From positions 1 through 46,144 of the forward strand of contig JANQSG010000029.1 in NCBI GenBank assembly GCA_028284185.1: DNA of 46,144 nt, written 5' to 3'. Of this stretch, positions 7,223 to 19,672 are shown in pieces; within the stretch, counting starts at the first letter, position 1; each line of letters starts with the position of its first letter. The stretch comes from Kangiella sp. GTDB lineage: Bacteria; Pseudomonadota; Gammaproteobacteria; Enterobacterales; Kangiellaceae. The translations under genes and the position numbers were made by a program. Below the pieces are notes generated by a model that worked only from the letters and a program-made list of their open reading frames with translations, made no database searches and was not told where the DNA came from.

Positions 7223-7678
7223 ATGGAACTATCCAATTGGATCTCACTAGTAACAGGTCTATTTGCTGGCTTAGGAATTGGTACTGCATTAACAAGTTTA
7301 ATACAACATAAACTTAAGAAGTATGAAGCTGTACATTCCAGCCTAAGAAAAGATTTAGAAAGCCGGTATAGAGTAATTATTTTACTAATGTATGCAGCTT
7401 ATGATTTTGAGACGAATAAAAGTGCCATAAGAATTAATCGCCCAGATTTGAAATCAAAAACTGATGTTTTAGAAGAGCTAAAAGCAGAATGGTTTAATAT
7501 GCTTTTATTCTCGTCGGATACTACGCAAAAGCTTTTACATATTTTTATTAGTTCTCCAAATATCAAAAATTTAAAAGAGTGTGCTTTATCTATGAGGAAC
7601 GATCTTGGAAGAGGCTCACTATCCGACGAACTTAACAAGCTTGAATTCAAAAACGTAAATAAACTTGAAAATAGTTAA
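7223..7678 (+). CDS. Hypothetical membrane-anchored protein, 151 residues
   Basis: I do not recognise this protein. It has one N-terminal hydrophobic segment at about residues 6-27 (WISLVTGLFAGLGIGTALTS), then a basic stretch (HKLKKYEAVHSSLRKDLESR) and a helical, charged, probably cytoplasmic part. There is no lipobox or cleavage site. AAGGAC eight bases before the ATG supports the start. Base composition is AT-rich. The gene sits between the M2 peptidase terminator and a tandem inverted pair of structured repeats, and nothing nearby suggests a job. It may be strain-specific. Confidence 0.6.
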   Translation: MELSNWISLVTGLFAGLGIGTALTSLIQHKLKKYEAVHSSLRKDLESRYRVIILLMYAAYDFETNKSAIRINRPDLKSKTDVLEELKAEWFNMLLFSSDTTQKLLHIFISSPNIKNLKECALSMRNDLGRGSLSDELNKLEFKNVNKLENS

Positions 7679-7690
7679 TAGTTCTTATTC

Positions 7691-7875
7691 ATTTTCTTTG
7701 TTTGTCCAAAGAAAACGAACCAAAAGAAAGGACACCCGAAAATTAGGTGCTTCGCACTTCCCTCGTTCATAAAAGTTACTTAACGCGTCGCAAAACGAAA
7801 CTTCCTGTTTCGTCTTTGCTAAATTGGGCTATCCCTGCCCAATTTACGCTATAACTTTTCATCACTCGGCTAATT
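7691..7875 (-). repeat. Structured interspersed repeat, copy A1
   Basis: This is the most diverged of four copies, in minus orientation. Reading the minus strand it shows the shared flank (7847-7873), hairpin 1 (7820-7829 with 7837-7846, 10 pairs), hairpin 2 (7790-7819, outer GCAAA/TTTGC, inner CGAAAC/GTTTCG), the linker GCGTTAAGT, a mini-hairpin GTGC-GAA-GCAC (7747-7757), and hairpin 3 (7692-7700 with 7707-7715). The last hairpin of the other copies is absent. It faces copy A2 head to head. The 543-base gap 7679-8221 is filled almost entirely by A1, A2 and one short hairpin; I see no gene in it. Confidence 0.75.
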
Positions 7876-7922
7876 TTATGGGAAATTGGTGCAAACATGC
7901 GCTTTTAATCCCCTTTAATTCC

Positions 7923-8118
7923 CACCGAGTGAGGGTGAGAAATAGCAATTGCCATCTGGATGATGGCAATAATGAAATTCAGCATCAGGGATGTGCTGTA
8001 TTTCATGGTGCGTTAAGTTTCGAGGCTGAGCGAGGGTAGCCGCAGGCTGGGAATTTCGGGGAAACATCTTTTAGTTACTTTTCCATGTTTGGAAAAGTAA
8101 CTCGCCGAGGGGCGAAAA
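7923..8118 (+). repeat. Structured interspersed repeat, copy A2
   Basis: Plus-orientation copy. Elements in order: flank ending in AATAGCAA; hairpin 1 ATTGCCATC/GATGGCAAT (7948-7956 with 7962-7970); hairpin 2 with outer ATGAAAT/ATTTCAT (7972-7978 with 8000-8006) and inner CAGCA/TGCTG; linker GGTGCGTTAAGT (8007-8018); mini-hairpin AGCC-GCA-GGCT (8038-8048); hairpin 3, a perfect 12-pair stem (8073-8084 with 8091-8102); and terminal hairpin TCGCC-GAGG-GGCGA followed by AAAA. Confidence 0.85.
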
Positions 8119-8189
8119 ACAAAGCTCATTTATGTTTCAAGCTATATGAAAATATGGTTACAGCAAGCGTAGATACCGTCAAAATACAG

Positions 8190-8209
8190 ATTCCTGCTTT
8201 CGCAGGAAT
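8190..8209. repeat. Short TTTC-loop hairpin repeat
   Basis: ATTCCTGC-TTTC-GCAGGAAT, a perfect eight-pair stem. A relative with changed but still paired bases (CCCGC-TTTC-GCGGG) is at 19659-19672. It lies just after the pncC stop, so it might also end pncC transcription, although there is no T-run. Confidence 0.55.
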
Positions 8210-8221
8210 TTCAAATCCTGA

Positions 8222-8710
8222 TTAAAAATCTTCTATTAAATTAGAAATTAAATTAATCGCCTGCTCAGTGACTTGCTGACGCACCTGAGCTCTATCTCCA
8301 TCAAATACTATTTTATGTGCTCCCGCTCCTAATGCATGGGCATAACCAAACCAAACAGTGCCAATGGGCTTACCTTCTGAGCCTCCATCAGGACCTGCAA
8401 TTCCACTAACCGCTATGGCAATGCGTTTACCCTTACCTGCTCGGTTATAGGCTCCTTTAGCCATGCTTTTAACCACATCCATAGATACTGCACCACAAGC
8501 TTCGATAAGCTCCATAGGCACACCGAGCATTTCATGTTTAGCCTGATTGGAATAAGTAATAAAAGCTCTATCAAACCACTTAGAACTTCCAGGTAAATCA
8601 GTACAGGCAGCAGAGATCATACCGCCAGTACAAGATTCAGCAGTTACCACCATTAATCCTTTATCGACTAACTTTTGTGCAATTACTTCTAGCTGGGATT
8701 TAAAATCCAA
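8222..8710 (-). CDS. pncC: Nicotinamide-nucleotide amidohydrolase (PncC / CinA C-terminal domain)
   Basis: A stand-alone CinA C-terminal domain that deamidates nicotinamide mononucleotide to nicotinate mononucleotide in NAD recycling. Family motifs are clear: TAESCTGG near the N-terminus, FITYSNQAK, GAVS, the SGIAGPDGGSEGKPIGTVW core and DRAQVRQQ. I choose the TTG at 8710: GAGG sits seven bases upstream and the product (162 residues) matches the family length of about 165. An ATG at 8797 would add 29 hydrophobic residues not typical of the family. The gene is divergent from mutS. In many relatives recA follows cinA/pncC; here a repeat cluster follows instead. Confidence 0.9.
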   Translation of the reverse strand: MDFKSQLEVIAQKLVDKGLMVVTAESCTGGMISAACTDLPGSSKWFDRAFITYSNQAKHEMLGVPMELIEACGAVSMDVVKSMAKGAYNRAGKGKRIAIAVSGIAGPDGGSEGKPIGTVWFGYAHALGAGAHKIVFDGDRAQVRQQVTEQAINLISNLIEDF

Positions 8711-8814
8711 TTTATAACCTCGTAAATGATTTATGTTTAAAGCCAGATCCGTTAAGCTTAGGCTTATTAACAAAAGCCCATTGACTATTGGCATCATAAT
8801 ATAATAATTCTTAC

Positions 8815-11436
8815 ATGGCTAAATCCGATCTAAAAAGCGGTAAAAAAAGCGATCAAACCGCTGCAGATTTACAACATCATACTCCAATGATGCGCCAGTA
8901 CTGGCAGCTTAAGCAGCAGCATCCTGACTATCTATTGTTTTATCGCATGGGCGACTTTTATGAGCTGTTTTATGAGGATGCCAAACGTGCTGCGGAAATG
9001 TTGGATTTAACCCTGACCAAACGCGGTGCTTCTGCTGGTGAGCCGATTCCTATGGCTGGCGTACCTTTCCATGCAGTGGATGGATATCTGGCACGTTTAG
9101 TCAAACTTGGCGAATCGGTTGCGATTTGTGAACAAATTGGCGACCCGGCTACCAGCAAAGGGCCTGTTGAAAGAAAAGTCGTTCGCATTGTTACGCCAGG
9201 CACCCTTTATGATGAAAACCTGCTAGATGCCAATTCTGATCAACTGCTGGCTTCTGCTTATCAAAAATATAATCAATTTGGCCTGGCCTGCATTGATATG
9301 GCTTCTGGTCGCTTCTGGTTATCGGAATTTGATAATAAAGCAGATTTTCAGGCCGAATTATTTCGCTTAAAGCCTGCAGAAATGGTGATTAGCGAGGCTT
9401 TTCAAAAAAATGGACAACAGCAGTTAATACAAAATCTTGATACTGCGATAAAGTGGCAGCCTGACTTTGCTTTTGATTATGAACAAAACCTGGAAAAGCT
9501 GACTCGCCATTTTAAAGTAACCAGTCTCGATTCTTTTGGCTGTGAAGATCTAAAGTTAGCCATTTGTGCTGCTGGTGCGGTTTTAGAATATGCCAAAAAC
9601 ACTCAATTGAATCAATTGCCGCATATTCGCATAATGCAGCGTTTGCAAGACGCCGATCAATTGACGTTAGATCCGGCAACTCGCCGTAATTTAGAACTTA
9701 CTGAAAACTTACAAGGTGGTGTTAATAACACTTTATTTGAAGTGTTAAATAGTACCAAAACCGTTATGGGCGCACGATTATTAAAGCGCTGGTTGCACGC
9801 ACCATTGACCAATAAAAACATTATTAATAAACGTTTTGATACGGTTGAATCCTTGCAAGCAGAGCATCGTTTTGTATCGCTGCAAGAAACCCTTAGCTCC
9901 ATTGCCGATATTGAGCGCATTGTCACTCGGGTAGCATTAGGCAGTGCCAATCCACGTGATTTAAAGCGTTTACAACATGGGCTGGAGCAATCGCAACAAA
10001 TCTTAGAGCAACTGGAATCTGAAAATTTACCTTTAGATCTTCTTAAGCAGATTTATCCATTACCCGATGTTCAAGAGTTGCTGAAAAAATCCATAGTTGA
10101 ACAGCCACCAATGGTCATTCGAGATGGAGGCATGATTGCCATTGGTTTTAATACCGAACTGGATGAACTAAAAAATCTAGCCTCAAATGCCAGTGACTTT
10201 ATGCTCAAACTTGAGCAACAGGAAAAAGAACAAACTGGCTTAAGCACTTTAAAAGTTGGCTATAACAAGGTGCATGGTTTTTATATTGAAATTTCTCGTG
10301 CTCAATCGGATCAAGCGCCAGCTCATTATATTCGTCGTCAAACCTTAAAAAACAACGAGCGTTTTATCACACCCGAACTTAAAGAGTACGAAGAAAAGGT
10401 TTTATCGAGCAAATCAAAAGCCTTAGCACTGGAGAAAAAACTTTATCAAGAATTAATTATAGAGCTGCAACAATACGTAGCCGAAATTCAATCCACCGCC
10501 AGTACCATTGCTGAACTGGATTTATTAACCTGTTTTGCTGAGCGAGCCGAAAGCCTACAATTTAATCGCCCTATTTTGAATTCGAATTCCAATATTGACA
10601 TCAAAAAAGGGCGACATCCAGTAGTCGAATACCACTTAAAAGAGCCTTTTATTGCTAATGATTTAAGCCTGAATCAATCGCGCCGTTCCATTATTATTAC
10701 TGGACCAAACATGGGCGGTAAATCCACCTATATGCGCCAAACCGCTTTAATTGTATTATTGGCCCATATCGGCTGTTTTGTGCCAGCAGAATCTGCCACC
10801 ATTGGCACTGTGGACAGGATTTTTACCCGTATTGGCGCATCGGATGATTTAGCCTCTGGCCGCTCGACTTTTATGGTAGAAATGTCAGAAACCGCCAATA
10901 TCCTTAATAATGCCACCAATAACAGTTTGGTGTTATTGGATGAAATTGGTCGCGGTACCAGCACCTTTGATGGTTTGGCTTTAGCCTCTGCCACCATTCA
11001 GTATATCCATGAAAAGCTCAGCGCCTTTACCCTTTTTGCAACTCATTACTTTGAGCTAACCCAACAAGCTGAAGAGTGGGACTCAATGGTAAATTTGCAC
11101 TTTGGCGCCACCGAACATCACGACAAAGGCCAACAGCATTTGATCTTTTCCCACCAGGCCAAAGATGGTGCAGCCAATCAAAGTTATGGTATACAGGTGG
11201 CCCAATTAGCCGGCCTACCTGACCCAGTAATAAGTGCGGCAAAACAGTTATTAGCACATTTTGAGCAGGCTGGCACCCATGAAACCGAGCTGCCAAAGCT
11301 GGATTTTGCCCAGCAAACTGCACCTAATCCGATTGATAGCGAAGTCAAAGCCATTCTGGATTCAGTGGAAATTGACGAAATAACGCCTCGCCAAGCACTG
11401 GATCTATTGTATAAACTCAAAGAATCGCTAAAATAG
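8815..11436 (+). CDS. mutS: DNA mismatch repair protein MutS
   Basis: This 873-residue protein is collinear with E. coli MutS throughout. The mismatch-reading motif is F48-Y-E50 in RMGDFYELF. The clamp and lever domains follow ([20 protein letters not shown]). The C-terminal ATPase has Walker [10 protein letters not shown] at 630-638, [14 protein letters not shown], Walker [14 protein letters not shown] and ATHYFELT. It ends with the dimer/tetramer tail ([13 protein letters not shown]). MutS recognises mismatches and short loops and recruits MutL. No convincing ribosome site precedes the ATG. The next gene is fdxA, 35 bases downstream; mutS-fdxA adjacency is common in gammaproteobacteria. Confidence 0.98.
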
Positions 11437-11471
11437 CGCCTGCTTGACCATTTAGTTTTAGGAGTTCGTCA

Positions 11472-11795
11472 ATGGCATTTGTAGTCACTGATAATTGTAT
11501 CAGATGTAAACACACCGACTGTGTCGAAGTTTGTCCGGTAGATTGTTTCTACGAAGGACCAAACTTTTTGGTGATTAACCCAGACGAATGTATCGACTGC
11601 GCCTTATGCGAGCCAGAATGCCCGGTTGAAGCCATTTTCGAAGAAGACGACCTTCCTGAAGGTCAGGAAGAGTTTATCCAGTTAAACGCCGAATTATCTG
11701 AAATCTGGCCCAATATTACTGAAAAGAAAGACGCACCAGAAGATGCTGAAGAATGGGATGGCGTGAAAAATAAACTTCAATATTTGGAAAGATAA
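11472..11795 (+). CDS. fdxA: 7Fe ferredoxin FdxA ([3Fe-4S][4Fe-4S])
   Basis: A 107-residue acidic ferredoxin of the Azotobacter FdI/FdxA type. Cysteines at 9, 12, 17, 21 and 25 ([17 protein letters not shown]) and at 40, 43, 46 and 50 ([11 protein letters not shown]) match the seven-iron pattern, with the usual C-terminal acidic extension. It carries electrons in the cytoplasm; partners cannot be read from context. AGGAG eight bases before the ATG gives a strong start. Confidence 0.96.
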
Positions 11796-11812
11796 ATCCC
11801 TTTTCAGTATTC

Positions 11813-11846
11813 TTGTCATTGCGAGATTTTGAAGAAGCCGTGACAA
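11813..11846. repeat. GTCATTGCGAG-type interspersed repeat fragment
   Basis: TTGTCATTGCGAG...CCGTGACAA with complementary ends (TTGTCA 11813-11818, TGACAA 11841-11846). This resembles a short dispersed repeat beginning GTCATTGCGAG that I know from many proteobacterial genomes. It directly abuts structured repeat copy B. Confidence 0.5.
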
Positions 11847-11861
11847 TCCCACTAACTCATG

Positions 11862-12070
11862 TTTTCGCCCCTCGGCGAGTTACTTTTCTATGCTTAGAAA
11901 AGTAACCAAAAGAAGCTTCCCCGAATATTTAGGCCTACGGCTACCTTCGCAAAGCCAAAGTCATTTAACGCACCAAGAACAACAGTACTTCCCTGTACTG
12001 ATGTTCTTTATTCAAATCATCCCGATTTGAATTGCTATTACTTTTGCTTCGCTCAGCTAAATATAAGGGG
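11862..12070 (-). repeat. Structured interspersed repeat, copy B
   Basis: Minus-orientation copy. Hairpin 1 is 12010-12018 with 12024-12032 (ATTCAAATC/GATTTGAAT). Hairpin 2 has outer AAGAACA/TGTTCTT (11975-11981 with 12002-12008) and inner CAGTAC/GTACTG (11983-11988 with 11995-12000). The linker GGTGCGTTAAAT, a GCC-GTA-GGC mini-hairpin, the perfect 12-pair hairpin 3 (11879-11890 with 11895-11906) and the terminal TCGCC/GGCGA hairpin are all present. With the fragment at 11813-11846 it accounts for the 321-base gap between fdxA and the amidohydrolase; I see no gene there. Confidence 0.85.
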
Positions 12071-12116
12071 GGCTTAGTGCATACCTTAAAGAAAGCAGAA
12101 TTTTGGACTGAAAGGC

Positions 12117-14231
12117 TTATTCAATCTCTATCGACTTAGTAAATGGCTTTACACCTATGGCTTGATAAATTTCATCAGGTTTGTAAAGGTTTTGCCCTTT
12201 AATCACCACAGTAATTTTACGTAGTGCATTCATGTCCTCTAATGGATTGCCATCCACAAAGACCAGATCCGCCTGCTTGCCTTCTAAAATAGAACCATTG
12301 GTTTTATCCGCACCGACCACTCTAGCCGAACCAATTGTAGCCAGCTTTAACACATCCGCATTGGAAATACCGGCTTGAGCATAATCAATCAATTCTTGAT
12401 GCAAAGTAAAGCCTGCAATACCATCAGTGCCCGGAACTACTTGTACGCCACTATCGTGCAGTTTTTTAACCATCTTGCCGAGCGCTTCGGTAGATTTATT
12501 GTAAGCAGCTCTTTCTTCATCCTTGATATCCAAAATAGCGGTTTTAAAATTACGGGCAATGGTTACGGGCAAGTGATCATAAATATCAGCTACTTCCGGA
12601 TTAATCCGCCCTGCTTTGGCCTGCAATAAAGATTTGAAAACGGAAAGAGTTGCATCAATCACAGTGCCTTTTTCTTTTAGCAATTGAATAAAACCTTCCA
12701 CTTCTTTGCTATCCAAATCCAGCTCGCCTGCTTTTTCACCCACCATAGTGAAGCGCAAACGCTTACGAGTATCGATTTTGCCCATAAAGTTAAGGAACAA
12801 CATATTGATATGCTGAATTTCGTCAAATCCCGCTCGAACCGCCTCCTCAGCAGTCATAAAGGCAGGAATATGACCACTTAACTTCATGCCCTTACTATGA
12901 ATATGTTCAGCTAATGGCTTAACCCACTCTGGTTCCATAGAGCTGTAGGTTTTAATTTGTGGGTAACCGTGTTCAGCATACCAGTCCACTGCTGCTTTAG
13001 CTGACTGCAGCGAGTCCACCGTCTTGCCCATTTTCATAGCATAAGGGCTTTCGCGATCCATAAAACCGGAACGGTACACATCACCACCCATAATTTCATT
13101 GGCTTCGCTCATACGTTCAATATCAATAATATTGTCGTGAGTATTGCCCATATCACGCACATTGGTGACACCGGCAGGAATATTTAACAAGCCATCGGAT
13201 TTCTGCAAATGACCATGCATATCCCATAGACCAGGAATTAGCGTTTTTCCTTGTGCATTAATCACTTTGCCATTGGCTAATTTTGGTAATGTAGTGCCGA
13301 TCATACTGATCTTGCCATTATCAATAACAATGTTCTGGCCTTCGATCAAGTTGCCAGTTTCAACATCCACATAATTAGCATTTTTGATTAGAATCGGCGC
13401 TTCAATGGTATGAGTTAATTTTTGCGCTAATTCTTTTAGATAGTCATTATCGGCACGCTTTTGGATCTCGCTGAGTTGCTCTAAGTGCTCACGCCCCCAA
13501 CCTTCAGGAATAACACCAAACCAACCACCGCCATCGGTGGCAAAGAAATTGTAATCATCGTCATACCAGGCAAAATTAGGGGTAAAACCAAAGCCGGCGA
13601 TACCTAGTAAATGAACCTTTTTATCTTCTTTGCCATTGTTCAATGTCACCGTATCCAGCTTAACCAGGCTGGCAGTTCCAGCGGGAATTAGATCAATTTT
13701 ATTATCCAGATCTTTGGCTAAAGCTTTGACCAATAGACTACTGGAAACACCCGTGCCGTTGATCGGCACATAATACTCATCACCATTCGATTCAAGCTGG
13801 CCGGATTCATTCAAACTTTTCCAAACCGCCAGACCATCGGAATAACTATAGCTTTCATCAATCGGCGCACCAAAAGCCGAAATACCTTTAATTTGCTGTT
13901 TAACAATAAAACCCTGCTCATTAACTTCTAAAGTTTCTTCCGTTTCAATACGACGGTTATTCCAGCCCATTTTTAACTTGGCACTGACAAAATTACCGTC
14001 CTGCTGCACCTGCATATTGCCCGCAGAATCTTCTTTGTTAAAAATATTGTATTGAATGGAAAACTTTTCCGATTTAGTAGCTGCTTCGGCTTTTGACTCT
14101 GTAGTTGCTGCAACATTTTCCGCTGTTTTATTTTGTTGCTCTTTTTCTGCTTGATTACAAGCTGTTAACGATACGCTAAGTGCTATTGTCATAGCTATCG
14201 ATAGCCTGCTTGGTATAAATTGACTCGACAT
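12117..14231 (-). CDS. Amidohydrolase-superfamily lipoprotein with extra N-terminal domain
   Basis: A 704-residue metal-dependent hydrolase. The signal peptide ends at lipobox SLTAC (Cys at about 25), followed by a low-complexity Gln/Lys/Ala linker, so it is envelope-anchored. Residues about 55-280 form an uncharacterised beta-rich domain. The amidohydrolase domain starts around 290 (GQNIVIDNGKISMIG) and shows D337-M-H339-G-H341, K427 in QIKTYSS as candidate carboxylated lysine, SGHIPA, the QHIN His, and PGTDG with the catalytic Asp. This pattern is typical of imidazolonepropionase/prolidase-like amidohydrolases; the substrate (dipeptide, lactam or other) cannot be told. GGGGAG before the ATG supports the start. 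It is a single gene between repeat B and the desaturase. Confidence 0.85.
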   Translation of the reverse strand: MSSQFIPSRLSIAMTIALSVSLTACNQAEKEQQNKTAENVAATTESKAEAATKSEKFSIQYNIFNKEDSAGNMQVQQDGNFVSAKLKMGWNNRRIETEETLEVNEQGFIVKQQIKGISAFGAPIDESYSYSDGLAVWKSLNESGQLESNGDEYYVPINGTGVSSSLLVKALAKDLDNKIDLIPAGTASLVKLDTVTLNNGKEDKKVHLLGIAGFGFTPNFAWYDDDYNFFATDGGGWFGVIPEGWGREHLEQLSEIQKRADNDYLKELAQKLTHTIEAPILIKNANYVDVETGNLIEGQNIVIDNGKISMIGTTLPKLANGKVINAQGKTLIPGLWDMHGHLQKSDGLLNIPAGVTNVRDMGNTHDNIIDIERMSEANEIMGGDVYRSGFMDRESPYAMKMGKTVDSLQSAKAAVDWYAEHGYPQIKTYSSMEPEWVKPLAEHIHSKGMKLSGHIPAFMTAEEAVRAGFDEIQHINMLFLNFMGKIDTRKRLRFTMVGEKAGELDLDSKEVEGFIQLLKEKGTVIDATLSVFKSLLQAKAGRINPEVADIYDHLPVTIARNFKTAILDIKDEERAAYNKSTEALGKMVKKLHDSGVQVVPGTDGIAGFTLHQELIDYAQAGISNADVLKLATIGSARVVGADKTNGSILEGKQADLVFVDGNPLEDMNALRKITVVIKGQNLYKPDEIYQAIGVKPFTKSIEIE

Positions 14232-14387
14232 AATGACTCCCCATCCATTGTTTATTCCGATAAGAATAAAATGAGCATATAAACTAATTGCTGGTAACTC
14301 AAGCAGCGACTAATTAATCTTCAATTTTCGTTACAATTTTGCTAATTGGTCGAGCAAACACCATAACCATGTAAAAAGTCCATACAC

Positions 14388-14410
14388 AAAAAAGGCCCCA
14401 AACTGGAGCC
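14388..14410 (-). terminator. Intrinsic terminator of the desaturase gene
   Basis: On the minus strand GGCTCC-AGTTT-GGGGCC (one G-U pair) followed by six T, about 20 bases after the desaturase stop. Confidence 0.85.
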
Positions 14411-14429
14411 TTTTAGCTAAAGTAGTACT

Positions 14430-15566
14430 TTAAGCATACTGTTTCGCCAGTTGTAACCAGCTGGCTTTTTGCAATTCAAAGTTTTTCTTTAACTGTTCAT
14501 ATTCCTGGCGCAAGTTCAATTGCTCATAAGATTCCAGTAACTTATTTTTCTTTGCTTCCAGCCACTGCTTTTGTGCTGCATACACTTCACTTAATTTGCT
14601 TACTAGCTGTTCATATTCATCATGCAGTTTTTGCATAATCTCTTCGGCATTGGCTAAATGAGCAGTTTTTTCTTTGGCTTTTAACAATAAGGTTTCTGCT
14701 TTGGCCTTTTCAATTTTCTCAACAGAAACCGCTTTTAGATTTTTAGTAATGCCAATCCAGCTTAGAGCTTTGATCCACCATTTGGAAGGATCAAAATGCC
14801 ACCAGCGAACCCCATTACGATAATCATATTGGAACTTGTGGTGATAATTATGATAACCCTCGCCGCCAGTCAATACCGCCAATACGATATTATCGCGTGC
14901 TGAGTTTTCTTCCGTATATGGGCGGGTGCCCCAGATGTGGGCCAATGAATTGATAAAAAACGTTAAGTGATGTGACCAAACTAAACGCCACACCCCTGCT
15001 ACTAACAGCATTTCCCAGAAAAGCCCATAAGCCAAACCTAATAATAGTGGAATAGCAACGTTCACTCCGACACTCAATAACCAATAATATTTATGCTGAA
15101 ACATGACTATAGGATCACGTTGCAGATCTGGCGAATTTTTATAGTCTTGATCATAACGGCCATTATCTTCACGCTTTAACAACCAGCCAATATGCGAATG
15201 CCAGAAACCTCGGCTCGCGGAATAAGGATCCAATACATCATGATCCACATCTTTATGATGCTTTCGATGATCCGACGACCAATGCAGAGCACTATTTTGC
15301 AATGCCAGACAGCCACCAAAAGCCAAAATCACCTTCAATACCGGATGCGCCTCATAAGCTTTGTGTGACCAGAGACGATGATAGCCCATGGAAATCGAAG
15401 TACTTGAAAAAAGCCATAAGCCAATGCCCCAAGCCCAGCTTGAAAAGTGATAACCGTATTCAAAGCCATACCAGGGAACCAGAATAATGGCAGCAATAAA
15501 GCTTAAACCGAAAAAGATGATATTAATCCAAATAAACTCTGGTTTGGAGTTGGTTTGTTCTGACAT
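14430..15566 (-). CDS. Membrane fatty-acid (acyl-CoA delta-9 type) desaturase
   Basis: This 378-residue integral membrane desaturase has all three histidine boxes for the di-iron centre: H63RLWSH68, H100RKHH104 and H239NYHH243. Hydrophobic segments lie around 10-32, 40-58, 75-92 and 160-195. It should introduce a double bond into saturated acyl chains to adjust membrane fluidity. Residues about 285-375 form a Glu/Lys/Leu-rich, coiled-coil-like tail after the catalytic domain. GAGG lies five bases before the ATG. The gene is divergent from fabR, and a FabR-type operator sits 33 bases upstream, so it is probably repressed by FabR when unsaturated acyl groups are plentiful. A strong terminator follows it. 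Confidence 0.94.
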   Translation of the reverse strand: MSEQTNSKPEFIWINIIFFGLSFIAAIILVPWYGFEYGYHFSSWAWGIGLWLFSSTSISMGYHRLWSHKAYEAHPVLKVILAFGGCLALQNSALHWSSDHRKHHKDVDHDVLDPYSASRGFWHSHIGWLLKREDNGRYDQDYKNSPDLQRDPIVMFQHKYYWLLSVGVNVAIPLLLGLAYGLFWEMLLVAGVWRLVWSHHLTFFINSLAHIWGTRPYTEENSARDNIVLAVLTGGEGYHNYHHKFQYDYRNGVRWWHFDPSKWWIKALSWIGITKNLKAVSVEKIEKAKAETLLLKAKEKTAHLANAEEIMQKLHDEYEQLVSKLSEVYAAQKQWLEAKKNKLLESYEQLNLRQEYEQLKKNFELQKASWLQLAKQYA

Positions 15567-15598
15567 GGAGGCCTCAGTTGATGATTGCTATTCAAAAC

Positions 15599-15616
15599 AG
15601 CGTACAAGTGTACGCT
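15599..15616. promoter_or_regulatory. FabR-type operator 1 (desaturase side)
   Basis: AGCGTACA-AG-TGTACGCT: two perfect 8-base arms around a 2-base centre, close to the known FabR site of E. coli (AGCGTACAnnTGTTCGCT). It lies 33 bases upstream of the desaturase start. Confidence 0.85.
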
Positions 15617-15660
15617 AAAAGTGTGCCTAGTATAGCGGCCTGAAATAATATTTGCAATCC

Positions 15661-15678
15661 GGCGTACAACTGTACACT
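15661..15678. promoter_or_regulatory. FabR-type operator 2 (fabR side)
   Basis: GGCGTACA-AC-TGTACACT, a slightly weaker relative of operator 1 with the same spacing, 49 bases before fabR. It suggests FabR autoregulation. The centres of the two sites are 62 bases apart. Confidence 0.75.
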
Positions 15679-15726
15679 TAACTATTTGTTTTCTATACTA
15701 ATGGTACTCAATTAAACGGAGTCTTT

Positions 15727-16347
15727 ATGGCTGGTGCTCGAGCAATACAGAAGGAAAAAACGCGTCAGGCGATTATTGAAGCCGCTTTATCACAGCTCAC
15801 AGCAGAGCATGGTTTCAGCAATTTAAGCCTACGTGAAGTTGCCCGCGAAGCTGGAATTGCCCCTACCTCTTTCTATCGACATTTTAGCGATATGGAAGAG
15901 CTTGGGCTGACTTTAGTTGATGAATGTGGTGTCACTTTGCGCCAATTAATGCGCAAGGCACGTAAGCGAATAGAAAAAAAAGGCAGCATTATTAATACTT
16001 CTGTCGAAACCTTTATGGAATTTACCCAGCAAAACGCCAATATATTTCGCCTTTTGCTTAGGGAACGCTCAGGGACTTCCACTGCATTTCGGGACGCTAT
16101 CTTGCGCGAAATCAATCATTTTAAAGATGAGTTAACCGATTATTTACTCAATGAAAGTGACTATGATCATGATACTGCTTATGCCTTAGCCGAAGGCCTG
16201 GTCACTTTGGTTTTTAATGCCGGTGCTGATGTTCTCGATCTGCCCGCTAAGAAATCTAGGCTTTTGAAACAAAGGCTCATTAGACAACTCCAATTTATTG
16301 TCATTGGCGCTGCCGTAATTCATAAAAAGGAACAAAATGATGGATAA
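15727..16347 (+). CDS. fabR: TetR-family repressor FabR of unsaturated fatty-acid synthesis
   Basis: This 206-residue TetR regulator is recognisably FabR. Characteristic segments include [17 protein letters not shown], the helix-turn-helix [20 protein letters not shown] (about 38-57), [18 protein letters not shown] and [15 protein letters not shown]. coli FabR binds acyl thioesters and represses fabA, fabB and related genes. Here it stands divergent from a desaturase with FabR-type operators in between, so control of desaturation is the likely role. GGAG precedes the ATG. The last 11 bases overlap the nitrilase start, so both are expressed together. Confidence 0.95.
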
Positions 16348-17287
16348 AGTTTTTGTTGGGCTTGCTCAAATAGCCCCGGTTTGGCTCAACCAATCAGCCA
16401 CTATTGAAAAAGTTTGCAGCCACATCGAAAAAGCATCGAAACAAGGCTGTAACCTAGTGTGTTTTGGCGAAGCCTTATTACCAGGGTATCCCTTTTGGGT
16501 AGAAAGAACTGGCGGCGCTAAATTTAATGATGAATTTCAAAAATCTTTATTTGCCTATTATTCCTCACAAGCCATCAATATCGGTAATGGTGATTTGGAG
16601 CCGATTACCAGAGCTTGCAAAGAAAATAGCATTGCCTCCTATTTAGGGATCATTGAACGCGCCCATGATCGCTCTGGCCATAGTTTGTATTGTACTTTAG
16701 TTTATATTGATAAATCCGGAGTGCTTCAATCGAGCCATAGAAAATTAGTGCCTACTCATGAAGAACGACTGGTCTGGTCAATTGGCGATGGGCATGGTTT
16801 GCGAACTCATAGGCTCGAACAGTTTACAGTTGGTGGACTTAACTGTTGGGAAAACTGGTTACCGCTGGCACGCACCTCACTCTACGCGCAAGGTGAAGAT
16901 TTACATATAGCCGTTTGGCCTGGTGGTGATCATAACACTCACGACATTACCCGCTTTATCGCCAAAGAGTCACGTAGTTATGTGGTTTCAGTTTCGGGAT
17001 TTCTGACTAAAGAACAAATTCCCAAAGATTTACCTTTCTATAAAGACATTATTGATTTAATGCCTGAATCTTTAGCCAATGGTGCCTCTTGTGTCGCCAA
17101 ACCCAATGGTAACTGGTTATTAGAACCACAAATAGGGAAAGAAGATTTATTTATTGCAGAACTGGATCATCAGGAAGTACGCAAAGAGCGTTCATTAATT
17201 GATGTTACTGGGCATTATTCAAGACCTGATGTCACTAAATTAATAGTCAATAGAGAGCGCCAAAAAATAGCTGACTTTGAAGACTAA
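16337..17287 (+). CDS. Nitrilase / carbon-nitrogen hydrolase
   Basis: A 316-residue member of the nitrilase superfamily with the complete triad: E45 ([11 protein letters not shown]), K136 ([12 protein letters not shown]) and C170 ([11 protein letters not shown]). The CWENxxP form around the cysteine and the LPGYPFW segment place it in branch 1, the true nitrilases acting on R-CN, rather than the amidases. It should be cytoplasmic and oligomeric. It overlaps fabR by 11 bases, with AGGA ahead of two consecutive ATG codons (16337 and 16340; either could be used). The link with FabR is unexplained. It converges with the SdpI-like gene nine bases away with no visible terminator. Confidence 0.9.
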
Positions 17288-17296
17288 AAGGTGGCC

Positions 17297-17668
17297 TTAA
17301 TTCTTATCAACTTCTATGCGCTTGCCGTGCTTTTTTGCATACAGCTGACTGGCATATTGTTTCAACTGATTATGACGCCATAACAACAAACAGACCAAAG
17401 CCACGGCACCCACAAAAATCAACAGGGCTAAAATGCCTCGTGCAAAAGCCAGTGACATAAATGCCAATGCAAAAACGCCATAAGAGAATTGGCGGTAATA
17501 AACTGCCGCTGCCATGTGAATTTTGCGCCAGATTTCTTCATCGGCTAAGGTTTCAGGAGTTCTAATACCGCTTAATCCATTCGGCTTAAAATCTGGATTC
17601 GCCATTTTTCCAGACAAGTAATAAAACACCAGGCCAACCACAAACAAGCCAACAAAATAGAAAATCAC
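17297..17668 (-). CDS. SdpI-like small membrane protein
   Basis: A 123-residue inner-membrane protein with hydrophobic segments at about 2-18, 60-78 and 79-95. The motif SGIRTPETLADEEIWRKIH resembles the G-x-R-T-P...W signature of the SdpI/YhfL family. SdpI of Bacillus is an immunity and signalling protein; in proteobacteria the role of such proteins is unknown. The start is GTG at 17668, part of a GTGA overlap with the ltaE stop, with AAGGAG eight bases upstream, so it is translationally coupled to ltaE. The C-terminus is basic. Confidence 0.75.
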   Translation of the reverse strand: MIFYFVGLFVVGLVFYYLSGKMANPDFKPNGLSGIRTPETLADEEIWRKIHMAAAVYYRQFSYGVFALAFMSLAFARGILALLIFVGAVALVCLLLWRHNQLKQYASQLYAKKHGKRIEVDKN

Positions 17669-18672
17669 GCAAAAAACTCCTTAACTTTTTCCGATATAAA
17701 TTTTACATCGGAACTGGACACATCTAAGTGCATTACCCAACGCATAGTTTCCGCTGGAATAATAATGATATTGTGCTGTTTTAAGGAATTTGCAAGTTTG
17801 ATTGCAGTTTCCATATCAGTTTTAACAAACAGCATATTGGTTTGCACCAAGTCCTGATTAATGGATAACTGCGGAATAGCTTCTAATCTTTCGGCTAATA
17901 CTTTTGCGTTGGCATGATCAATCGCCAAACGCTCAATATGTTCATCTAAAGCATAAATTGCCGCTGCCGCCAACACGCCCGATTGGCGCATGCCGCCACC
18001 AAGCATTTTACGCCAGCGACGTGCCCACTTAATGATTTCTTTATCCGCACATAACACCGAACCCACTGGTGCACCCAAGCCTTTGGATAAACAAATAGAA
18101 ACTGAATCAGCATATTGTGCCAAATCCTTTAATTCACAATTTAATTCAGTAGTCGCATTAAAAGCACGCGCACCATCCAAATGCACCGACAAACCTTTTG
18201 AATGCGCAAACTCATAGGCCTTCTGCATATAGTCTAAAGGAATAACTTTGCCGTTATGAGTATTTTCTAAACACAATAATTTAGAACGGGCAAAATGGTA
18301 ATCATCTTTTTTAATCACCGATTCAACTTTCGCTAAATCAAGGGTTCCATCTTTTTCCACAGGTAAAGTCTGCGGTACCACACTGCCTAAAACTGGCGCC
18401 CCACCCGCTTCGTATAAATAAGTATGGTAACTCTGTCCAACGATATACTCCTCACCACGCTGACAATGACTCATTAGAGCCACTAGATTCGACATAGTAC
18501 CCGACGGCACAAATAAAGCATCCGCCTTACCCGACATCTCTGCCAGCTTATCTTCAAGCTTCTTAACCGTCGGATCATCCTGGAAAACATCATCACCAAC
18601 CGCCGCCGCAGCCATAACCTTACGCATTCCTTCAGTCGGCTGCGTCACTGTATCGCTTCTTAGATCAATCAT
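17665..18672 (-). CDS. ltaE: Low-specificity L-threonine aldolase
   Basis: A 335-residue PLP enzyme of the beta-eliminating lyase/threonine aldolase family that splits L-threonine and L-allo-threonine into glycine and acetaldehyde. Key features are MIDLRSDTVTQPT at the start, the PLP-binding region HLDGAR (164-169), and the Schiff-base lysine K197 in SICLSKGLGAP, the same position as in E. coli LtaE (333 residues). It is cytoplasmic and probably tetrameric. No clear ribosome site precedes the ATG. The gene is divergent from the lipoprotein gene at 18722 with only 49 bases between. Confidence 0.96.
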   Translation of the reverse strand: MIDLRSDTVTQPTEGMRKVMAAAAVGDDVFQDDPTVKKLEDKLAEMSGKADALFVPSGTMSNLVALMSHCQRGEEYIVGQSYHTYLYEAGGAPVLGSVVPQTLPVEKDGTLDLAKVESVIKKDDYHFARSKLLCLENTHNGKVIPLDYMQKAYEFAHSKGLSVHLDGARAFNATTELNCELKDLAQYADSVSICLSKGLGAPVGSVLCADKEIIKWARRWRKMLGGGMRQSGVLAAAAIYALDEHIERLAIDHANAKVLAERLEAIPQLSINQDLVQTNMLFVKTDMETAIKLANSLKQHNIIIIPAETMRWVMHLDVSSSDVKFISEKVKEFFA

Positions 18673-18721
18673 TGCTATAATTTTTCATATGTAATTATTT
18701 TAAAATATTAAAGGATATTTA

Positions 18722-19342
18722 ATGAGAACAATAGCATTTATATTGATAATTTTTTTAGCAGGGTGTAAAACTACCCAGCCCATCCAAGAGTCTCCTCTTC
18801 TGTTAAACCTAAGCTGGTCTCCTTACAATTCAAACCTACAGAAAGTAAACTATATAAATCACAAAAAGCCAATTACGTTAATATTTCCAACATTCGGTGG
18901 TTCAATTTTTGGAAATCCCTCACAGGAATTTACTACACTTGAAGTCGATAAAAACAATTTTACGTTAACTATTCCTGTCTATCTATCTAGTCGTGCCGAA
19001 AAAATGAGGCTTAGCGATGACTTAAAAATCAAACCTAATGGTACTAAATCTCTAAGAATTGCCACTTTTCACCATTACCCTGAGTATGGCAGCAATATTG
19101 GTGGAGGTTATTTTGCAAATAAGGCTAATGGAAATCCTTTACTTTTAATGTATTTTTCAAACCCTGTTTCGATTACTGGTACAGTATTGCATGATAACGA
19201 AAAATATATCCATGACATACAAACCTCTGAACAAGGCTGGTTTTGGCTAGAAGTTGTAGAAGTAGCCTCCAAACAGTTTGAAGTTAAAAAATATGCTGGA
19301 GATACTACTAATATAGAATTTGCAGCAATTCTAGCTCAATAA
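18722..19342 (+). CDS. Hypothetical lipoprotein, 206 residues
   Basis: The N-terminus MRTIAFILIIFLAGC is a classical lipoprotein signal with Cys at residue 15. The mature part is rich in Asn, aromatic and beta-branched residues, with no membrane segment, and I recognise no domain. AAAGGA six bases before the ATG gives a good start. It is AT-rich compared with its neighbours. It stands alone between divergent ltaE and structured repeat C, and may be a lineage-specific gene. Confidence 0.65.
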   Translation: MRTIAFILIIFLAGCKTTQPIQESPLLLNLSWSPYNSNLQKVNYINHKKPITLIFPTFGGSIFGNPSQEFTTLEVDKNNFTLTIPVYLSSRAEKMRLSDDLKIKPNGTKSLRIATFHHYPEYGSNIGGGYFANKANGNPLLLMYFSNPVSITGTVLHDNEKYIHDIQTSEQGWFWLEVVEVASKQFEVKKYAGDTTNIEFAAILAQ

Positions 19343-19345
19343 AAA

Positions 19346-19561
19346 CCCTTATATTTAGCTGAGCAAAGCAAAAGTAATAGCAATGGACATCATGGAAGAT
19401 GGCCATAATAAACTCCAGCGCATGGACGCGCTGTAGTTTATGGTGCGTTAAGTTACTTTAATTTGCGAAGGAAGCCGAAGGCCTAAATATTGGGGCGGAC
19501 TTCTTTGTTGGTTACTTTTTCTTGTCCGCGCAAGAAAAAGTAATTCGCTGAGGAGCGAAAA
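19346..19561 (+). repeat. Structured interspersed repeat, copy C
   Basis: Plus-orientation copy. Elements: flank TTTAGCTGAGCAAAGCAAAA...AATAGCAA; imperfect hairpin 1 GGACATC/GATGGCC (19385-19391 with 19398-19404); hairpin 2 with outer ATAAACT/AGTTTAT (19408-19414 with 19435-19441) and inner CAGCGC/GCGCTG (19416-19421 with 19428-19433); linker GGTGCGTTAAGT; mini-hairpin GCC-GAA-GGC (19474-19482); a 13-pair hairpin 3 (19512-19524 with 19531-19543); and terminal hairpin TCGCT-GAGG-AGCGA. It occupies about half of the 463-base gap 19343-19805. Confidence 0.85.
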
Positions 19562-19600: not shown

Positions 19601-19672
19601 TTCCGCATTCCTTAAAGGGATTTCCTTTGGTCACAGTGCGGAATGACACACTTGGATTCCCGCTTTCGCGGG
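19601..19672. repeat. Two short hairpin repeats beside copy C
   Basis: An inverted repeat TTCCGCA/TGCGGAA (19601-19607 with 19637-19643) is followed by CCCGC-TTTC-GCGGG (19659-19672), a relative of the hairpin at 8190-8209. Such GATTCCCGCTTTCGCGGG elements are common dispersed sequences in proteobacteria. No gene is visible in the rest of this gap. Confidence 0.5.

Follow-up and report, generated by a model that had tools for sequence, protein, structure and literature searches.

The TwoAYGGAY RNA (Rfam RF01731) was described by Weinberg et al. (2010; PMC2864571) and, in the portion of the literature accessible to us, is treated as a motif or a candidate small RNA and not as a repeat. Its binding to CsrA is proposed in the available part of a 2014 paper (PMC4333381), and hence the CsrA idea is not new for this family; our searches of partly accessible literature found no account of dispersal, head-to-head pairs, a pseudoknot, or turnover by conversion and inversion for it. 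Rfam places TwoAYGGAY in one clan, CL00106, with CsrB, an RNA that, according to the accessible text of PMC7652899, binds about 18 CsrA subunits. Here we describe an element that occurs four times in a 46,144-nucleotide (nt) stretch of a Kangiella sp. genome (assembly GCA_028284185.1, contig JANQSG010000029.1, positions 1 to 46,144 of the forward strand; hereafter the window) and is marked by dispersal, covarying structure, near-invariant loops, fixed spacing and strand asymmetry. We suggest, with confidence that is about evenly balanced, that it belongs to the TwoAYGGAY family as an extragenic, dispersed repeat whose RNA would bind CsrA.

TwoAYGGAY is the sole Rfam family to reach its cut-off in the window: at a cut-off of 43 bits, copy 4 lies above it with 49.1 bits and copy 2 below it with 34.1 bits, and no RF01731 match is reported for copies 1 and 3 even at E <= 5. 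Over the whole genome the family yields six matches, five of them above the cut-off and copy 4 among those five; elsewhere, a copy in genome G046 scores 64.5 bits and one in Psychromonas 55.2 bits. A covariance model, R1, was built from nine copies: all four window copies plus five matches to Rfam (A2). It finds 17 copies in the genome (E <= 1.4e-13), the nine training copies matching by construction. The alignment used below comprises 122 R1 matches; 60 extra stretches were added, and 99 of the 113 sources were searched, the remainder being repeats of the same copies. It is weighted towards high-scoring copies and fitted to the R1 model.

The element resembles TwoAYGGAY in presenting two GGA-loop hairpins in a junction and in the five genome copies that pass the Rfam cut-off. 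It differs in that these are only five out of the 17, and in that its loops are ANGGAN and not strictly AYGGAY, the literal motif being found in hairpin 2 of 25/122 copies (ATGGAT 18, ATGGAC 5, ACGGAT 2). It further adds a defined closing stem, a mini-hairpin, a pseudoknotted hairpin 3 and a hairpin 4, and is present in many copies per genome, with head-to-head pairs among them. CsrB is a single gene. Like CsrB/CsrC and RsmX/Y/Z, the element bears GGA in hairpin loops, and the CsrB-like RNA of G006 holds GCACAGGAUGUGC, which is close to the element hairpin 2 of stretch L011 (GCACAGGGATGTGC); unlike them, it has two sites per copy in many copies, and neither a promoter nor a terminator belonging to it was seen. 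The repetitive extragenic palindromic (REP) repeats and bacterial interspersed mosaic elements (BIME), as well as the miniature inverted-repeat transposable elements (MITE), are short, extragenic, hairpin-forming, many-copy repeats near the 3' ends of genes. All of these properties recur in our element; however, its stems vary with compensation while its loops are kept, and reading it revealed no GTAG-type head or duplicated target, no transposase search having been made. A resemblance of the GTTAAGT linker to what we take to be the core site of integron attC was also considered and dropped because the linker is variable (e.g. GCGTAAAG, GCGTGATG).

The full element is about 220 nt long with a core of about 150 nt. 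The latter is closed by a CCCC...GGGG stem and further has another long stem, a short one in which a G-U pair is near-invariant, a junction bearing the two GGA-loop hairpins, and the mini-hairpin, which sits beside the closing stem. Downstream of the core lies hairpin 3, of the form GTTACTTTTC...GAAAAGTAAC or GTTCGTTTTCTTT...AAAGAAAATGAAC, and then hairpin 4 (TCGC...GCGA), which a rough pattern detects in 72/122 copies. About five bases immediately 3' of the core are complementary to the hairpin 3 tip (e.g. TGGTC/GACCA, CGTGC/GCACG, TGAGC/GCTCA) and can form a pseudoknot with it. The parts of the four window copies are as follows, with strands following the orientation of the Rfam family and those parts without a model score read from the sequence:

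7688..7720, minus strand: hairpin 3 of copy 1, GTTCGTTTTCTTT/AAAGAAAATGAA
7730-7734, minus strand: TGTCC, opposite the loop GGACA of hairpin 3, the pseudoknot of copy 1 (also by the pseudoknot test)
7735..7883, minus strand: core of copy 1, B type, with closing stem, two GGA hairpins and mini-hairpin (R1 109.1 bits, E 1.1e-23; fold z -5.73)
7884..7910, no strand: 27-nt spacer separating the divergent copies 1 and 2
7911..8060, plus strand: core of copy 2, A type (R1 139.2 bits, E 3.2e-31; fold z -5.39)
8073..8102, plus strand: hairpin 3 of copy 2, whose loop TGTT and the AACA at 8063-8066 are able to form a pseudoknot
8102..8115, plus strand: hairpin 4 of copy 2, TCGCCGAGGGGCGA
11865..11878, minus strand: hairpin 4 of copy 3, TCGCCGAGGGGCGA
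11879..11906, minus strand: hairpin 3 of copy 3, GTTACTTTTCTA/TAGAAAAGTAAC, for which the pseudoknot test scored only 3 pairs
11920..12070, minus strand: core of copy 3, A type (R1 161.8 bits, E 6.5e-37; fold z -6.81)
19345..19495, plus strand: core of copy 4, A type (R1 155 bits, E 3.3e-35; fold z -4.88)
19394..19396, plus strand: GGA of the hairpin 1 loop of copy 4
19424..19426, plus strand: GGA of the hairpin 2 loop of copy 4 (C-ATGGAC-G)
19496..19545, plus strand: pseudoknot strand CGGAC of copy 4 (19496-19500) and hairpin 3 tipped by GTCCG, for which the test, counting loop bases alone, scored 3 pairs
19544..19559, plus strand: hairpin 4 of copy 4, TTCGCTGAGGAGCGAA

A preliminary description of this DNA had reported a four-copy repeat with shared motifs and covarying hairpins. 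That observation is confirmed: the quoted stems, the GCGTTAA linker, the mini-hairpin and the terminal TCGC/GCGA hairpin were all found again in the sequence. Some details needed amending, in that the strands are mixed (copies 1 and 3 minus, copies 2 and 4 plus), some ends lie a few bases off, and copy 1 is without the TCGC/GCGA hairpin. Each window copy folds 4.9-6.8 standard deviations below dinucleotide shuffles, and this, with the 17 copies found by R1, puts the repeat well outside chance. The description's suggestions of a covariance-model search for further copies and of a covariation test bore fruit, as did its claim of selection on structure, as detailed below. What it did not contain is that the family is already in Rfam and that the GGA loops are the near-invariant part.

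Covariation across the 122 copies is strong. The predicted pairs are complementary in 92.6% of cells, and a shift of the partner by 1-3 columns lowers this to 33-44%. Two-sided changes occur at 48 of the 53 pairs, against a shuffled mean of 37.3, and the 30 column pairs with the strongest covariation comprise 27 predicted ones and three that extend helices. A test in the manner of R-scape, using our own script with 20 null alignments preserving the tree and the column rates, found 18 out of 11,026 column pairs at E < 0.05: 16 of these are predicted pairs and two are helix extensions, with none elsewhere, and 37/53 predicted pairs stay below significance. On the sense strand G-U outnumbers A-C by 205 to 45, one near-invariant G-U being excluded, which points to selection on the sense strand as a single strand.

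The same selection is apparent at individual loci. Among the 122 copies, 49 between-genome pairs share both flanks, where, in the head-to-head cases, the upstream flank may contain the partner copy. Restricting these to non-overlapping pairs with an element identity above 0.8 left 20 orthologous pairs, which differ at 128 of 2161 paired sites and 117 of 922 unpaired sites. Single changes preserve pairing in 36 of 59 cases, where the substitution pattern of the unpaired sites gives an expectation of 0.233 (P 7e-10), and double changes do so in 17 of 18. With a looser cut (identity above 0.7; 21 non-overlapping pairs) 41 singles are kept and 29 broken, and 20 doubles are kept and one broken.

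Against these varying stems the GGA loops stand out. The three GGA positions of the hairpin 1 loop are kept in 117/120, 118/118 and 113/116 of the copies with letters there, and the GGA of the hairpin 2 loop together with its opening A in 119/119. The hairpin 2 loop reads ANGGAN in 106/122 copies and AGGAN in 13/122, one of the remaining three having an insert, and its closing C is found in 113/119. The spacing between the two GGA is 27 nt in 96 copies and 25-28 nt in all of the 113/122 that have both in register. CsrA ligands obtained by systematic evolution of ligands by exponential enrichment (SELEX) define the site RUACARGGAUGU, mostly with a six-base loop closed by AC/GU, and CsrA bridges two sites 10-63 nt apart, as given in the accessible text of PMC7652899; the site description in the available part of PMC4347634 agrees. 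The element conforms to this published form, as far as those texts convey it, in having an (A)NGGA loop closed by C-G and two sites within the bridging range, hairpin 1 being less canonical; by its sequence, the hairpin 2 loop appears close to the SELEX site.

The genome itself encodes CsrA, which matches solved CsrA chains, best 1y00 (which we take to be E. coli CsrA) and also 2jpp and others (presumably RsmE entries). In two genus genomes csrA is found twice, close together (G009:C1:1322444 and 1322945; G018:C26:77955 and 79180). CsrB-family matches, all below the cut-off, are seen in 8/20 genus genomes, five of which have the match no more than about 2.5 kb from rnpB, and none was found in G000. 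Four such candidates, L153-L156 (G006, G001, G018 and G009), hold 10, 10, 15 and 12 GGA, respectively, in the matched stretch, at about 1.6-2.5 kb from rnpB. A comparable search for RsmZ gave matches in 5/20 genus genomes, none above the cut-off; the one in G015 has five GGA, and that in G011, with no GGA, looks like a chance match.

Several observations weigh against CsrA binding by the RNA. Within the hairpins, A is the first base in 6 of the 54 six-base loops of hairpin 1; the pair beside the hairpin 2 closing pair is A-U (AC/GU, as in SELEX) in 64 copies and C-G (CC/GG) in 52; two copies, the partners in L051 and L093, are without a hairpin 2 GGA loop; and the element stems are longer than those of most SELEX ligands, which mostly have <=4 contiguous pairs in the available text of PMC7652899. 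Further, CsrA has no need of the closing stem, mini-hairpin, pseudoknot or hairpin 4. At the level of the genomes, csrA is present in 20/20 members of the genus, including the three without the element, so that co-occurrence of the two is uninformative, and the GGA-rich CsrB-family matches indicate that a dedicated sponge seems present in the genomes that have them. As for transcription, the 60 bases that precede each of 100 copies show no conserved promoter, promoter-like sites between 7600 and 19800 are not above shuffles (25 vs 29.6), and both neighbouring open reading frames (ORFs) are antisense to the element in 33 of 118 copies, for which read-through would yield the antisense RNA. The evidence is structural, and the step to CsrA is one for which we see the case for and against as about equal.

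The architecture beyond what a sponge would require raises the alternative of a pseudoknotted RNA with an unrelated activity, such as a ribozyme or a guide scaffold, in which the GGA loops would be tertiary contacts or sites for a protein other than CsrA. The pseudoknot favors it: at least four pairs form in 82/122 copies, where 200 re-dealings of the loops averaged 24.1 and reached at most 34. This test took in 127 copies, i.e. the 122 model matches and five from other genera, from which five without a usable hairpin were dropped; a few of the called hairpins are wrong, e.g. through a nested insert in L016, L023 and L071. However, TwoAYGGAY alone reaches its Rfam cut-off in the window and the GGA loops closely fit a CsrA site, and we regard such an activity as very improbable.

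Two smaller elements are nested in some copies. One, of about 71 nt, lies antisense between the core and hairpin 3 in L016, L023, L071 and L112; it has two GGA hairpins of its own, one of which (AUACAAGGAUGUAU) fits the CsrA SELEX core. Allowing up to two mismatches, the mini-element hairpin occurs 27 times in 7/20 genus genomes, against 0 for a reversed control; in some of these occurrences the stems are compensated and in others not, and one is without GGA. The other is a hairpin module of about 27 nt with a variable stem (GTGACC..GGAA..CCTTTAGG), seen at 19609-19634 of the window and in L023, L103, L038, L083, L127, L011, L021 and L040. It is located inside hairpin loops both of the element and of an unrelated REP-like hairpin that adjoins copy 4, and hence seems to insert into hairpin loops; a rigid pattern for it gave 0 matches in the window.

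The element is widespread in the genus. Copy numbers in the relatives are lower bounds, up to 50 candidates per genome having been scored. It is found in 18 of 61 genomes (our own and relatives), comprising 17/20 of the genus and 1/41 of the others, this single positive being G046 with at least 5 matches. The genus holds at least 354 R1 matches, with a maximum of at least 48 in G011; among the up to 50 candidates scored for each, G010, G012 and G017 had no match. A class-wide scan, which is insensitive as only eight candidates per genome were scored, was positive in at least 7 of 369 genomes, our own included. The six further genera thus added all have GGA hairpins; a third hairpin follows within 110 bases downstream in G179, G159, G369 and G186, and not in G072 and G184. 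A pattern search for other TwoAYGGAY RNAs in named genomes gave six stretches, of which only that of Psychromonas passes Rfam, and the other five look chance-like on reading.

Close pairs among the 122 copies are head-to-head in 20 of 20 cases, several of them being one locus in different species, with gaps of 20-45 nt in 12, 69-71 in four and 115-182 in four. Copies 1 and 2 of the window form one such pair, with a 27-nt gap. The loci are subject to turnover: element identity is <=0.7 despite matching flanks in 19/49 pairs, some of which set an A against a B copy. Beside rnpB, half of a head-to-head pair is replaced in G004 relative to G008 and G001, the flanks and the other half being unchanged; the adjoining gene looked trmH-like on reading. 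A different locus carries an entire pair in opposite orientations with respect to the flanking sequence, G004 and G001 (L081, L095) being set against G008, G006 and G014 (L099, L088, L048). The model detects the element in 7 of 19 rnpB loci and has no match in the other 12, the downstream sequence having been read for 15/19; both halves are present in G001, G004 and G008, and one half in G018, G006 and G014, while the G009 match falls outside the stretch that was read, and what follows rnpB in that genome is a hairpin relic. By reading, rnpB is followed by partial tandem copies of its own 3' end in L127, L131, L136, L137 and L139; G000 and G007, too, have a longer RNase P match.

Such dynamics would also be expected of a MITE-like DNA element, whose hairpins are recognized as DNA or as one strand by a transposase or recombinase and whose RNA has no job. 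The dispersal and variability between species, the uniformly head-to-head pairs, the inverted pair and the loci without the element accord with this; the outer hairpins are inverted in the head-to-head pairs and not in solo copies. Yet fixed GGA loops amid varying stems are unlike sequence-specific end recognition, and compensatory change at fixed loci and the one-strand G-U excess argue against it, although G-T in single-stranded DNA could mimic the latter. A plasmid or phage origin also found no backing, with no match of copy 4 in plasmids and none of copy 3 in phages. On balance we find the MITE-like explanation rather doubtful. The preliminary description's proposal of a non-autonomous mobile element would accord with the dispersal, the variation between species and the absence from some genomes, but no target-site duplication was seen, no transposase search having been made. 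Another of its proposals, of a chromosome-structuring element tied to replication direction, is not favored: 6 of 13 listed copies in G013 lie along the leading strand (a hand count, with the terminus assumed at half the chromosome), which is unbiased. The earlier interpretation is accordingly partly supported.

In the window, copies 1 and 2 are flanked by a cinA gene and an ORF (7223-7678) that has no Pfam match, copy 3 by a ferredoxin-like and an amidohydrolase gene, and copy 4 by a monomeric isocitrate dehydrogenase gene and a further ORF lacking a Pfam match; the flanking genes are convergent at all three sites. The four cores are free of overlap with the six adjoining ORFs, and a protein-coding nature was rejected for them; in the wider set, ORFs of >=240 bases overlap 15/122 cores. 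Simple ORF calls placed 118 of the 122 copies, four being impossible to place, and show 55 between convergent and 9 between divergent ORFs, with 21 having both along the sense of the element. This preference for gene ends would suit a 3'-end element, a bidirectional terminator or RNase barrier under selection for RNA stability whose GGA loops serve a different protein. Terminator-like sites between 7600 and 19800 are likewise in excess of shuffles (32 vs 11.8) and, in copies 2, 3 and 4, include hairpin 4 read on the antisense strand. However, the T-tracts are poor, and a terminator needs neither two GGA loops at a set spacing nor a pseudoknot, making a 3'-end function on its own an unlikely explanation.

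If the RNA of the element does bind CsrA, its sense strand, once transcribed, would fold into a compact RNA some 220 nt long, in which the two GGA hairpins, about 27 nt apart, could clamp one CsrA dimer. Riding on the transcripts of neighboring genes, the copies would supply scattered CsrA sites, which might either titrate CsrA in the manner of CsrB or fix it at the 3' ends of transcripts, possibly protecting them from RNases. Copying, together with conversion among copies and pair inversion, may maintain the family. A more far-reaching version, which we offer tentatively and with considerable doubt, is that of a self-spreading repeat carrying its own CsrA dimer site, i.e. a mobile sponge or hijacker whose copy number (0 to at least 48) might set the level of free CsrA, and whose new pseudoknotted fold would be converting and inverting within the genome.

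Repeats of this kind are usually seen as inert; if CsrA binding is true of them, tens of CsrA sites would tie genome dynamics to physiology. The genus offers a natural experiment in this regard, with 0 to at least 48 copies per genome against a constant csrA. The larger architecture, in turn, provides a full and testable structural model for the poorly understood TwoAYGGAY RNA.

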